A stretch of DNA of 64,000 bases from Microbacterium sp. Root53 (GTDB taxonomy: Bacteria; Actinomycetota; Actinomycetes; Actinomycetales; Microbacteriaceae). Both the position numbers and the translations under genes were made by a program. Positions within the stretch are counted from its first letter, which is position 1. The number at the start of each line of letters is the position of its first letter. Positions 40,751-44,092 of the stretch are shown here, one piece after another. Under the pieces are notes generated by a model. It saw only the letters and a program-made list of their open reading frames with translations, did not search any database and was not told the origin of the DNA. The stretch covers positions 1 through 64,000 of the forward strand of contig NZ_LMFR01000021.1 of NCBI RefSeq assembly GCF_001426925.1, in the 5' to 3' direction.

Positions 40751-40847
40751 CCGCCGGCTCGCGGAGCTGACGGACGGGACCCGCACGGTGGTGATCCAGG
40801 GCCCCGAGCGCGTCGCGCTCGTCGGGCCGAACGGCGCGGGCAAGACC
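40751..40847 (+). repeat. 97-bp inverted repeat, left arm
   Basis: Identical, in opposite orientation, to 41286-41382, with 438 bp between. The sequence is an internal piece of the ABC-F gene (coding for the second Walker A region, LAELTDGTRTVVIQGPERVA ... GAGKT) placed backwards just after the gguB stop. It replaces the proper end of the ABC-F gene. Confidence 0.9.
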
Positions 40848-42394
40848 GTCGATGCCGACGCGGCGCAGGAACGCATGGTCGTGACTGACGATCAGTACGG
40901 CGCCGCGGTAGGCCTCCAGCGCCTCGGCGAGCTGCTCGACGCTGGAGATGTCGAGATTGTTGGTGGGCTCGTCGAGGATGAGCAGCTGCGCCGGGGGATC
41001 CGCGAGCAGCAGCCGCCCGAGCGCCACTCGGAACCGCTCGCCCCCGGACAGCGTGCGGACCGGGCGATCGAGCGCGCTGCCGCGCAGCAGCAGTCTCGCC
41101 AGCTGGTTGCGCAGCTCGCCAGGGGCAGTGCCGGGTGCCGTGTCCCGCACGTTGTCGACCGCGGAGCGCGCGTCGTCGAGGTCGTCCAGACGCTGGCGCA
41201 GGTACCCGACCCGCGACGTGAGCAGCGTTCCGCGCACGGCGCCCGGGGGCGCTGCCGCGCCCGAGACCAGCTGCTCCAGCAGCGTGGTCTTGCCCGCGCC
41301 GTTCGGCCCGACGAGCGCGACGCGCTCGGGGCCCTGGATCACCACCGTGCGGGTCCCGTCCGTCAGCTCCGCGAGCCGGCGGTGAGGTGGATGTGCTCCT
41401 CGTCGCGCACCAGCGCGTCGGCGGCGTCCATCGCCTCCTGAGCGGCCTCGACCCGGCTGTCGAGCGTGCCGCGCAGCGATCCCGCGGTCGCCTGCGCCTT
41501 GCGGGCGAGGGCGTTCGCGAGGATCTTCGGCATGTTCTCGGAGGCCTTCTTCCCGGCCCGGGCGCGGGCCGCGATCTTGGCCTCGGCCTCTGCGCGCTGC
41601 CGCTTCTCGACCTTCAGCGCCTGCTTGGCGGTGCGCGCGGCCTGCGCAGCCGCGGCCTGATCCTGCTCGACGGACTCGCGGAACGCGCTGTAGGGGCCGC
41701 CGAACACCTCCAGGCGCGCGCCCCGGCCCCGGGCCTCCTGGCCGAGGCCGGTGGCGCGCAGCTCGGCGGTGTGCTCCATCCGCTCGAGCAGCTCGAGGTC
41801 GTGGCTGACGACGATAAGCGTCCCGGGCCAGGCGTCGACCAGGTCGCCGAGCAGCCCGCGGGTCGGCCGGTCGAGGTTGTTCGTCGGCTCGTCGAGCAGC
41901 GTGATGGGCGTGCGCCTCAGGCGCAGCCCGGTGAGCGCGATCAGCATCGCCTCGCCGCCCGACAGGCGGGCGACCGGGCGGTCGAGGTCGGCGGCCGAGA
42001 AGCCGATCTCGTGCAGGGCCTCGTCCGCGCGGGACTCGACGTCCCAGTCGTCGCCGACGGCGTCGAAGTGGCGCTCGTCGACGTCGCCCGACTCGATCGC
42101 GCGGAGCCCCGCGATCACGGGGGCGATGCCGAGCAGGTCGGCGACCGTGGCGTCGTGGTCGAGGGTGAGCGTCTGCGGCAGGTAGCCGACGTCGCCCGCG
42201 GTCTCGATCCGGCCGCGGGTCGGGGCGAGCAGGCCGGCGATGAGCCGGAGCAGCGTCGACTTGCCGACGCCGTTGCGGCCGACCAGACCGGTGCGGCCCA
42301 TGGGCAGCGTGCCGTTCAGGCCGTCGAGGGCGGGCGAGCCGTCGGGCCACTCGAACGCGAGGTCGCGGAGGGTGACGGAGGTGGGGGCTGGCAT
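40848..42394 (-). pseudogene. ABC-F ATPase (ribosome-protection type), broken
   Basis: ATG 42394 begins a frame of 343 codons: first ABC domain with Walker A GRNGVGKST, signature LSGGEAML and ITLLDEPTNNLDRP, followed by a charged linker rich in Ala/Lys/Glu. It stops at 41363 (EEHIHLTAGSRS). The second ABC domain continues in another frame ([52 protein letters not shown]) but loses its natural end at 40848, where the repeat starts. Frameshift plus 3' replacement make a functional protein unlikely. ABC-F proteins of this type protect ribosomes from antibiotics or aid translation. Confidence 0.75.
41286..41382 (-). repeat. 97-bp inverted repeat, right arm
   Basis: The in-gene copy of the repeat at 40751-40847, 100 % identical over 97 bp. 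Its outer edge at 41382 coincides with the point where the ABC-F reading frame shifts, which ties both lesions to a single rearrangement. Confidence 0.9.
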
Positions 42395-42593
42395 GAGTGT
42401 GGGACCTTTCGGCGGTGCGGATGCGCACGGGCCGGTCGAGGTCGACGCGCGTCCGCGGGCGCCGGAGGGCGTGCGGACGGGGATCCGATCGGGTGAGGAA
42501 TCGCTGCGCGTCACCGTCGGCCGGAACGGCGCGAGAACGGTGGGGCGCGAACGCGGGGCCCTGAGCCATCTGTGCGATGGGGGCGGCGTTCGG
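42395..42593 (-). promoter_or_regulatory. Long leader of the ABC-F gene
   Basis: About 200 nt between the uORF stop and the ABC-F ATG with no other gene. It contains a CGTCCGC/GCGGACG hairpin (arms around 42474-42480 and 42452-42458) and an 11-nt segment (42436-42446) complementary to the uORF (42603-42613). Such pairing could gate the ABC-F ribosome site depending on ribosome position on the uORF. Confidence 0.4.
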
Positions 42594-42620
42594 CTAGATC
42601 CTGTCGACCTCGATCTCCAT
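42594..42620 (-). CDS. Leaderless 8-codon uORF (MEIEVDRI) before the ABC-F gene
   Basis: ATG 42620 lies 6 nt after a TACGGT -10 box (42627-42632) and is followed by eight codons and TAG. Short leader peptides of this kind in front of ABC-F genes act as antibiotic sensors through ribosome stalling (known from Listeria and staphylococcal systems). Here it is inferred from position only. Confidence 0.45.
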   Translation of the reverse strand: MEIEVDRI

Positions 42621-42626
42621 GCGCTC

Positions 42627-42632
42627 ACCGTA
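42627..42632 (-). promoter_or_regulatory. -10 box for the ABC-F leader transcript
   Basis: TACGGT on the minus strand, then GAGCGC, then the uORF ATG. Transcription would start at or next to the uORF start codon. Confidence 0.5.
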
Positions 42633-42751
42633 GCATCCGCGCACGTGCGGCGTCCCGGAGGATGCTGACACGGAGGCGCTCGCACGGTCGGTGTGGGAGT
42701 CTCGGATCAGCGGTCGACGACGGCGTCTCGCTCAGCACGAAGTGGCACCTG

Positions 42752-44092
42752 ATGGGCATCGCGGGGGAACAGCCGGCCTCCGATTCGCTCAACACCCGTG
42801 ACCTGCGCCGCGTGCTCGGCTCGTCGTTCATCGGCAGCGTGATCGAGTACTACGACTTCATCCTGTACGCGACCGCGGTCGCCCTGATCTTCGACAAGGT
42901 GTTCTTCGGCGACCAGCCCGACGGGATCGGCCTGCTGGCCTCGTTCGCGACGCTCGCGGTGGGCTACCTCGCGCGGCCCCTCGGCGGCATCCTGTTCGGC
43001 CACTTCGGCGACATCCTCGGCCGCAAGCAGATGCTCGTGCTGTCCATGCTGATGATGGGCGTCGCGACCGTCGCGATCGGCCTGCTGCCCACGCCCGCGA
43101 TGATCGGCGTCGCGGCCCCGATCATCCTGGTGCTGCTGCGCATCGTGCAGGGCATCTCGGTCGGCGGCGAGTGGGGTGGCGCGACGCTCATGGCTCTCGA
43201 GCACGCGCCCGAGCGCAAGCGCGGCTTCGCGGCCGCGTTCGCCAACGCCGGCGGTCCCGCGGGCGGGCTGCTGGCGACCTTCGTGGTGTCCGGGGTCTCG
43301 GCGCTCACAGGTGACCAGTTCCTGGTGTGGGGCTGGCGCATCCCCTTCCTCTTCTCGGCTCTGCTGATCGTCGTCGGTCTCGTCATCCGGCTGAAGGTGG
43401 CCGAGTCGCCCGTGTTCGAGCGGCTGGAGGCGGAGGCGGCGGAGCGCACGCAGCGTCGCCGCATCCCGCTGACGCGCGTGCTCACCGGGCACCCGCGCGT
43501 CGTGATCCTGACCCTCGTCGCCTCGCTCGGGTTCTACGCGTGCCAGGGCATCCTGACGTCGTGGGGTGCGTCCGAGGCGACCGGCGCGGGCGTCGCGCGC
43601 GAGGCCGTGCTCAACATCAAGGGCCTCGCGGCGGTCGTCACGATCGTCGTGTCGTTCGCCGCGGCACGCCTCTCCGACCGGATCGGGCGGCGCACGGTGC
43701 TGACGATCGGCGGCGTGCTGGGGGTGCTGTGGGCCTTCCCGGCGCTCGTGCTGCTGCACGACGGCACGGCATGGGGCTTCGCGATCGCGGTGGTGGTCGG
43801 CAACGGTCTGATCCAGGGCATCCTCGCCGGCCCGATCGGCGCGTACATCTCGGAGCAGTTCCCGCCGGACGTGCGCTACACGGGCGCCTCGCTCGCGTAC
43901 CAGGGTGCGTCGACGCTCGGCGCCGGCTTCACACCCATGATCGCGACCGCCCTCATGGTCGTCGGCGGCATCGGGGCGGTCGCCGGGTTCTGGATCGTCG
44001 TCCTGGTGCTCGGACTGATCGCCGTGCGGCTCTCGCGTGAGGGCGCCGTGCTGACGCCGCGGGCCGGAAAGCGCCGAGCGGCGCGCGCCTGA
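42752..44092 (+). CDS. MFS transporter, metabolite:proton symporter (MHS) family
   Basis: 446 aa, 12 helices. The N-terminal SSFIGSVIEYYDFILYATA (about 20-38) and GHFGDILGRKQML (loop 2-3), then QGISVGGEWGGATLMALEHAP, are hallmarks of the MHS branch (ProP, KgtP, PcaK, ShiA). Substrates in this branch are organic acids, betaines or aromatic acids; which one is not visible. ATG 42752 was taken because it gives the usual short N-terminus; its ribosome site is weak. Confidence 0.83.
   Translation: MGIAGEQPASDSLNTRDLRRVLGSSFIGSVIEYYDFILYATAVALIFDKVFFGDQPDGIGLLASFATLAVGYLARPLGGILFGHFGDILGRKQMLVLSMLMMGVATVAIGLLPTPAMIGVAAPIILVLLRIVQGISVGGEWGGATLMALEHAPERKRGFAAAFANAGGPAGGLLATFVVSGVSALTGDQFLVWGWRIPFLFSALLIVVGLVIRLKVAESPVFERLEAEAAERTQRRRIPLTRVLTGHPRVVILTLVASLGFYACQGILTSWGASEATGAGVAREAVLNIKGLAAVVTIVVSFAAARLSDRIGRRTVLTIGGVLGVLWAFPALVLLHDGTAWGFAIAVVVGNGLIQGILAGPIGAYISEQFPPDVRYTGASLAYQGASTLGAGFTPMIATALMVVGGIGAVAGFWIVVLVLGLIAVRLSREGAVLTPRAGKRRAARA

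Follow-up and report, generated by a model that had tools for sequence, protein, structure and literature searches.

A conserved upstream reading frame with a predicted leaderless start precedes ABC-F and Cfr-like genes in actinobacteria and may be the sensor of a ribosome-mediated attenuator

Both uORF (upstream open reading frame) attenuators of actinomycete ABC-F genes and leaderless cysteine attenuators of mycobacteria are already known. In mycobacteria, leaderless polycysteine ORFs are reported, in work of 2020 attributed to Canestrari, to act as cysteine-responsive attenuators. Candidate cysteine-rich uORFs are also presented in the available text of a further study (PMC4633059). Like the uORFs considered here, which share an IEVDR-type core and are predicted to be leaderless, the polycysteine ORFs are short actinobacterial ORFs proposed or shown to attenuate an operon; unlike them, they sense cysteine through cysteine codons and are associated with no antibiotic or ribosome-protection gene. 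Among ARE-ABCF genes of actinomycetes, lmrC (PMC8546547) and are5sc and tiaA (PMC12421871) are described, in the available portions of these papers, as having uORF attenuators that switch between terminator and anti-terminator and respond to lincosamide, streptogramin A and pleuromutilin drugs. What they have in common with the present family, as far as those portions go, is a uORF upstream of an ABC-F gene in an actinomycete. The are5sc and tiaA peptides (MLV and MVGDDDISG) differ, however, and are given there with ribosome binding sites, whereas the start codon of the IEVDR uORFs follows a −10 box.

The CplR, VmlR, VmlR2 and LsaA systems belong to Firmicutes. Combined transcription and translation attenuation has been shown for cplR, and VmlR, VmlR2 and LsaA also have uORFs (PMC10201436, available text). 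These are uORF-controlled ABC-F genes like those of the present family, but their peptides are different, and a leaderless start is not mentioned in the portion of that source at hand. For whiB7/wblC, an actinobacterial antibiotic-response gene, the available text of PMC13236596 describes induction by ribosome stalling in a uORF; this uORF, unlike the IEVDR uORFs, controls a transcription factor. It is also instructive to consider ermB, a methylase gene. Stalling by ErmBL depends on Val9-Asp10-Lys11, with Arg likewise accepted at the A site, according to the accessible part of PMC4935803. The uORF described below likewise has Val-Asp followed by a basic residue (V-D-R), but ErmBL, by the same partial account, stalls once ten residues are made and has a further requirement for Arg7, a place held by Ile in our uORF; the likeness comes to three residues and is a lead, not a test. 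Within the open literature searched, a scope that excluded subscription papers, preprints and supplements, neither the MEIEVDR peptide nor a leaderless antibiotic-sensing uORF was found; the shorter string IEVDR occurs in 7 papers, whose titles point to unrelated subjects. The initial annotation of this locus knew of no description of a leaderless sensor peptide; this apparently holds for antibiotic sensing and has to be narrowed in view of the leaderless attenuator ORFs and actinomycete ABC-F uORFs above. The IEVDR uORFs apparently form an undescribed family of candidate leaderless ribosome-stalling attenuators.

The window, that is, the whole 64,000-nt stretch of Microbacterium sp. Root53 DNA analysed here, holds the following elements upstream of a disrupted ABC-F gene (window coordinates):

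42627..42632, minus strand: −10-like box TACGGT, 6 nt 5′ of the uORF ATG
42594..42620, minus strand: 8-codon uORF MEIEVDRI-stop with a predicted leaderless start (window sequence; related peptide in 41 leaders)
42549..42591, minus strand: predicted post-stop hairpin with outer stem GAACGC/GCGUUC (window fold)
42451..42478, minus strand: hairpin GTCCGC...GCGGAC (predicted fold of the window leader; consensus fold of relatives)
42436..42446, minus strand: GTCGACCTCGA, an 11-nt perfect complement of uORF positions 42603-42613 (window sequence)
42413..42435, minus strand: CCGGCCCGTGCGCATCCGCACCG (local alignments with L129 and L132)
42405..42410, minus strand: GAAAGG, Shine-Dalgarno-like, for the ABC-F gene; the predicted fold pairs part of it with the 5′ end of the uORF

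As the initial annotation had described, TACGGT (42632-42627, minus strand) is followed by GAGCGC and then by an ATG at 42620 that opens the codons ATG GAG ATC GAG GTC GAC AGG ATC TAG, the TAG ending at 42594 (minus strand). The leader it had put at about 200 nt measures 199 nt from the uORF stop to the ABC-F ATG (42394, minus strand). This leader folds to −107.7 kcal/mol, against −88.7 kcal/mol for dinucleotide shuffles (z = −4.34; 0 of 200 shuffles as good), and in the predicted fold the uORF core pairs with 42436-42446 while the first uORF bases pair with GGUCCCA, touching GAAAGG. The leaders of the two closest relatives are 56 nt long and fold no better than shuffles (z −1.15 and −1.75). 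Consensus scans of 42380-42760 found no full sigma-70 promoter, no −35-like hexamer for TACGGT and no U-tailed terminator; the window leader also has no canonical post-stop hairpin of the CCACCG..CGGTGG kind, and 42300-42800 gave no Rfam match at E ≤ 1. A comparison of whole-leader DNA within the genus matched 35 of 99 genomes at E ≤ 0.001, but the matches besides the window itself were stretches of 24-66 bases with E ≥ 7e-6 and were discarded as chance.

The peptide itself is conserved, as the comparison of orthologue leaders proposed in the initial annotation has now established. IEVDR-type uORFs occur in leaders of several actinobacterial families, 41 in all and 40 of them distinct, 5′ of ABC-F orthologues or of bL32-paralogue/Cfr-like genes, and this conservation strongly supports the reality of the window uORF. 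Scanning the collected genomes with the N-terminal part of the ABC-F protein gave 56 loci, and a search of the genus at E ≤ 1e-60 gave matches in 168 of 198 genomes. In 82 ABC-F loci (L031-L112), a promoter-blind motif search covering as much as 1200 nt of upstream sequence recovered the uORF at 23; L087 and L098 offered less upstream sequence than the other loci, and L068 (uORF farther upstream) and L086 (VLSPEIDSA) joined the set after this search. Pattern scans blind to promoter and start codon hit 5 of 346 genomes of the order, 5 of 344 of the class and 11 of 260 of one family, with order and class sharing two genomes and class and family three; the reversed pattern hit none. A scan of the window's own family matched 5 of 199 genomes, three of them real and one a new copy, with two genomes matched by the reversed control (L140 and L141 were set aside), and a looser pattern run over the phylum matched 6 of 396 genomes, two of them real. 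From the looser scan, L119-L122 were rejected as uORF loci, the box-and-start arrangement being absent by eye. Longer stretches of genus members added two more uORFs, MELSEVDRH (L143) and VETIEVDRA (L144). The window's peptide, MEIEVDRI, recurs unchanged in Nonomuraea ceibae; other examples are MEIEVDRA in Arthrobacter, MEIEVDRS in M. paludicola, VLIEVDRG in Pimelobacter simplex, VLIEVDRL in Cellulosimicrobium, and MDLIEVDGN and MDIEVDRT... in Leucobacter, with the off-consensus MEIEVGTI in M. marinilacus. L062 reads MEIEVGTI. On plasmids, a stretch of the L132 leader had no match, and the ABC-F relatives present in 48 plasmid records all fell below 60% identity.

The start of these uORFs is predicted to be leaderless because TANNNT stands 6-9 nt before it in 40 of 41 leaders. 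In the promoter-blind search the box lies 6-7 nt 5′ of the start in 22 of 23 uORFs, the exception being L111 (TAGGGC), and in all 17 of the loci examined from the pattern scans TANNNT is followed, at 6-9 nt, by a start in frame. Spacing was tabulated in a set of 40 leaders that leaves out the duplicates L127, L135 and L137 as well as L118, L138, L142 and L111, and includes L134, which is identical to L070 over 150 nt. All 40 have TANNNT, at 6 nt (14), 7 nt (25) or 9 nt (1), in a set whose collecting motif demanded TANNNT and frame except in the 82-locus search and the order, class and family scans, which were unselected in this respect. A Shine-Dalgarno-like word was found in one of the 40 leaders (L117), and the GGAGG of L061 lies just 2 nt from the ATG. 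With a −10 box some 6-7 nt 5′ of the start and no Shine-Dalgarno sequence at the usual distance, the uORF has the arrangement expected of a leaderless ORF.

The uORF follows the phylogeny of the gene downstream. In a tree of the N-terminal part of ABC-F proteins with 88 rows (L032, L033, L034, L087, L089 and L127 omitted by choice and L111-L116 by range, with L143 and L144 replacing L033 and L034 from the same genomes), all 36 uORF rows fall in a single supported clade of 42 (98/98), and none of the 46 rows outside it has the uORF, Microbacterium relatives L035-L060 included. The uORF label changes 6 times on the tree against a mean of 28 for shuffled labels (0 of 500 shuffles). Named uORF rows belong to Microbacteriaceae, Micrococcaceae, Promicromonosporaceae, Nocardioidaceae, Streptosporangiaceae and Streptomycetaceae. 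None of the 26 loci L035-L060, whose ABC-F genes are about 57-61% identical to that of the window, has a uORF with TANNNT within the 400 nt inspected, and two genus members (G111 and G163) carry both ABC-F kinds. Within the clade, L063, L071, L073, L074, L079 and L083 lack the uORF in the stretches examined. M. album (L063, the same sequence as L032) has MRI-stop 7 nt after TACCGT and 208 nt 5′ of ABC-F, replacing MEIEVDRI-stop. In L071 and L074 the IEVDR peptide is absent and another, similar short uORF, ...IEGFAPxSxR-stop, lies directly upstream of ABC-F, with no TANNNT at 5-9 nt. L088, labelled Sphaerisporangium cinnabarinum, clusters tightly with Cellulosimicrobium, which points to a mislabelled entry or a recent transfer.

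In L068 (787-4105), L143 and L144 the gene order is uORF, bL32 (rpmF) paralogue, Cfr-like radical-SAM gene and ABC-F; L145, L146 and L147 have the uORF with bL32 and Cfr-like matches and no ABC-F within the stretch taken, the Cfr-like match of L147 covering only 40 residues. The bL32 paralogue of L068 matches Ribosomal_L32p at E = 1.9e-18. Its radical-SAM protein scores 377.5 bits with Cfr (TIGR04432), below the cut-off of 550, and 223.5 with RlmN; by these profile scores it is nearer Cfr than RlmN, and we call it Cfr-like only. For the intact orthologue L061, the best ABC-F match is NF000355 (ribosomal protection) at 307.3 bits, below the cut-off of 380. The uORF, bL32 paralogue, Cfr-like gene and ABC-F gene likely constitute a single-leader operon for ribosome protection. 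Drugs of the peptidyl-transferase centre are those that Cfr-type methylation and antibiotic-resistance ABC-F proteins guard against, as stated in the available text of PMC10201436. The succession of these genes behind the uORF hence suggests, by analogy, that the inducers are peptidyl-transferase-centre drugs, against which these relatives' genes would be expected to protect.

Leaders of the relatives are predicted to form two alternative helices. The first, hairpin 1:2, begins at the stop (TAG-CCACCG-loop-CGGTGGC, or CCGCCG/CGGCGG). Six or more of its seven pairs are present in 35 of 40 leaders; the other five are those of the window, L061, L062, L076 and L077. In 29 aligned rows, 93.9% of its cells are paired and nine are two-sided (0 of 500 shuffles); counted by pairs, two are two-sided, a value equalled in 45 of 500 shuffles, and the hairpin slid by −3 scored 0.132 in covariation against 0.129, though with just 70.8% of cells paired. 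Segment 2, comprising the loop and 3′ arm (CGAACUGCCGG), also pairs with segment 3, CCGGCACGUUCG, some 100-130 nt downstream. Helix 2:3 has 98.9% of cells paired in 16 leaders, with three two-sided cells (L064, L124 and L139; 4 of 500 shuffles), or two two-sided pairs when counted by pairs (equalled in 34 of 500); L143 adds one further two-sided change. This 16-leader count is cleaner than that of a 19-row alignment (0 of 500 shuffles), since a misaligned window row gives three of the seven two-sided cells there. All 11 pairs of 2:3 are present in 16 of the 18 leaders with a recognisable segment 3, and 10 of 11 in the other two. An unselected duplex test of 2:3 in 33 leaders gave p < 0.05 in six and p < 0.01 in none (mean z −0.83). 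Compensatory changes thus support 1:2 and 2:3 as attenuator-like alternative helices in relatives, the support being weaker in the unselected test. A 3:4 helix was dropped or downgraded, with 84.1% of cells paired and covariation not above shuffles. The consensus scan of the L068 leader found neither a full sigma-70 promoter nor a U-tailed terminator. As for the window, CCGGCCCGTGCGCATCCGCACCG (42413..42435) is likely the homologue of the relatives' segment 3 (CCGGCACGTTCGCATCGCACCG), the outer GAACGC/GCGUUC stem of its post-stop hairpin resembles their segment 2 and segment 3 sequences by eye, and its hairpin at 42451..42478 is possibly, again by eye, the counterpart of their GTCCGCCC...GGGCGTTGAC hairpin.

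We consider it probable, if well short of assured, that the uORF acts as sensor in a ribosome-mediated attenuator working by arrest and release through 2:3, with the window copy as a diverged member. Transcription would start at or beside the uORF ATG, and 70S ribosomes would load on the leaderless uORF. An antibiotic of the peptidyl-transferase centre or upper tunnel would then arrest the ribosome near Val5-Asp6-Arg7, Arg7 occupying the A site. A ribosome holding codon 6 in its P site would cover the transcript to about base 31, including the stop codon and segment 1; because segment 1 would be covered, 1:2 would be blocked and segment 2 left free for 2:3. Formation of 2:3 could release expression of whatever lies downstream, be it ABC-F alone, the bL32 paralogue with the Cfr-like gene, or all three, at the level of transcription or translation. 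The attenuator with a leaderless sensor that the initial annotation had outlined is supported in part, by the conserved, predicted-leaderless peptide and by the alternative helices of the relatives; the 11-nt pairing it had relied on is weak evidence, and the main helices use a post-stop segment absent in that form from the window.

The ABC-F gene that the window leader precedes is damaged, as these features lay out:

41381..42394, minus strand: ABC-F first part, residues 1-339 of the M. paludicola orthologue (comparison with orthologue)
40848..41390, minus strand: ABC-F second part in another frame, orthologue residues 346-524 of 543 (comparison with orthologue)
41286..41382, strand not applicable: right arm of an inverted repeat (97 nt, perfect), its outer edge coinciding with the frame break
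40751..40847, strand not applicable: left arm of the inverted repeat (97 nt), occupying the expected ABC-F 3′ end

The gene is interrupted where a little sequence has been lost from between its two ABC domains, and the 3′ end is missing. The breaks at the edges of the inverted repeat could reflect either real damage, by a fold-back rearrangement, or an assembly artefact. The window element could therefore be a relic whose ABC-F gene is interrupted and whose switching hairpin is lost, which we regard as close to an even call and which is compatible with the attenuator reading of the family. The frame break and absent 3′ end, both at edges of this inverted repeat, speak for it, as does the lack of the canonical 1:2 hairpin, whereas the retained uORF, −10 box and part of the leader, a fold far from random, and the chance that the repeat arose in assembly speak against it. 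With its −10 box and uORF intact, canonical 1:2 absent and ABC-F disrupted, the window copy may be degenerate.

The complementarity between uORF positions 42603-42613 and 42436-42446, placed by the initial annotation about 40 nt before the ABC-F start, is exact, and the near edge of the site is about 42 nt from that start. That annotation had also allowed that the pairing could be due to chance through the frequency of GGTCGAC in this genome. GTCGAC-type words are indeed common there, and the complementary 11-mer is found 88 times in the 2.91-Mb genome, against 3 times for its reversed control, but of 2552 200-nt windows taken at steps of 50 along both strands of the 64 kb, with the real sites counted in, only 23 (0.9%) contain a perfect 11-nt match to the uORF complement, and the duplex energy of the uORF with the downstream leader has p = 0.020 (300 dinucleotide shuffles of the downstream leader). 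Pairing by chance at a fixed place in the window is unlikely, at about 1-2%: unusual, not extraordinary. Conservation of the pairing across orthologue leaders was not borne out. Duplexes at p < 0.05 occur in 4 of 31 leaders, the window among them. By RNAalifold the uORF is complementary, in many segment-3 leaders, to a site some 143 nt past the stop, and in 16 Streptosporangiaceae-like leaders this +143 pairing reaches 89.7% of cells, with no two-sided change and no covariation, and it was dropped or downgraded. The window stretch holding 42436-42446 aligns locally with L129 (site on GCGTTGACC) and L132 (site on GCGTGAGCCTCG), at p = 0.003 each against 300 base shuffles (the best among six comparisons, with p 0.056-0.113 for the remaining four), whereas MAFFT puts 42436-42446 on the CACCGACCTCGGTC site of relatives. 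The site lies within a conserved part of the leader, but its exact counterpart in relatives is ambiguous. As a conserved feature of the leader family the 11-nt pairing is weak, being neither proven nor general and without covariation. A GTYGACC element was dropped or downgraded as uORF partner (found by one motif in 17 of 40 leaders, retained in L129, whose uORF no longer fully matches), and was dropped as internal −35, with no −10 after it by eye.

Pairing of the uORF matters to a second explanation, in which a drug stalls the ribosome on the first codons regardless of the peptide and IEVDR is conserved mainly through RNA pairing. LSAP drugs stall ribosomes at the start codon of are5scL1 and tiaAL (PMC12421871, available text), and a ribosome on a leaderless ATG would cover the uORF bases that, in some relatives, are complementary to the leader. 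The MRI-stop retained by M. album matches MR[I/M], the clostridial CplR uORF consensus in the accessible part of PMC10201436. Codon usage argues for a constraint on the peptide, however. Among single-base changes possible in the IEVD codons, 5 of 7 synonymous types are seen against 5 of 29 nonsynonymous ones (Fisher p = 0.010; the species are not independent), so that the uORF peptide is conserved with changes biased toward synonymous, and L129 and L131, whose Val codon is GTG, retain Val-Asp yet lose one pair with the leader. We regard stalling irrespective of the peptide as unlikely.

It is improbable that the conserved stretch is a DNA or RNA element, such as a protein site at the GTCGAC palindrome or a structured RNA, that is open by accident. 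Nucleotide conservation is high and the palindrome is there; of 40 leaders, 32 spell the Arg codon AGA and 38 close the uORF with TAG, so nucleotide constraints are present too. Against this stand the in-frame start of all the pattern-found loci, the synonymous bias, palindrome-breaking variants, the lack of an Rfam match for the window leader, and one-codon insertions, the distance from start to core being one residue in 30 of 40 leaders and two in 10 of 40 (in a set mostly selected in frame). A small trans-acting peptide, for which its conserved sequence could be cited, is very improbable, given that it has mostly 8-9 residues, stands in cis to one gene set wherever the downstream genes were examined, and has a stop that opens a hairpin in 35 of 40 leaders.

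If the peptide-sensing attenuator holds for the family at large, [M/V]x(x)IEVD[R/K]x would mark a widespread, undescribed class of leaderless antibiotic-sensing uORFs in actinobacteria that undergo ErmBL-like Val-Asp-Arg arrest after six residues and switch on a bL32 paralogue, Cfr-like methylase and ABC-F; this wider claim is tentative, and we would put it a little below even. The tool uORF4u, according to the available description, searches for a Shine-Dalgarno sequence before each prokaryotic uORF. If the start is truly leaderless, a 70S ribosome would initiate on a 5′-terminal AUG, an actinobacterial class of resistance switches would easily be missed by Shine-Dalgarno-based uORF searches, and inducible drug tolerance of soil actinobacteria could be predicted from an 8-codon signature. 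Close cfr relatives have been placed in Actinobacteria and some other taxa (PMC11047308, available text), and an operon with a Cfr-like methylase bears on the origin of cfr. In L065 and L070, fragments of the Cfr-like gene lie between the uORF and ABC-F, with a bL32-like stretch also in L065, and the operon seems to have been trimmed there.
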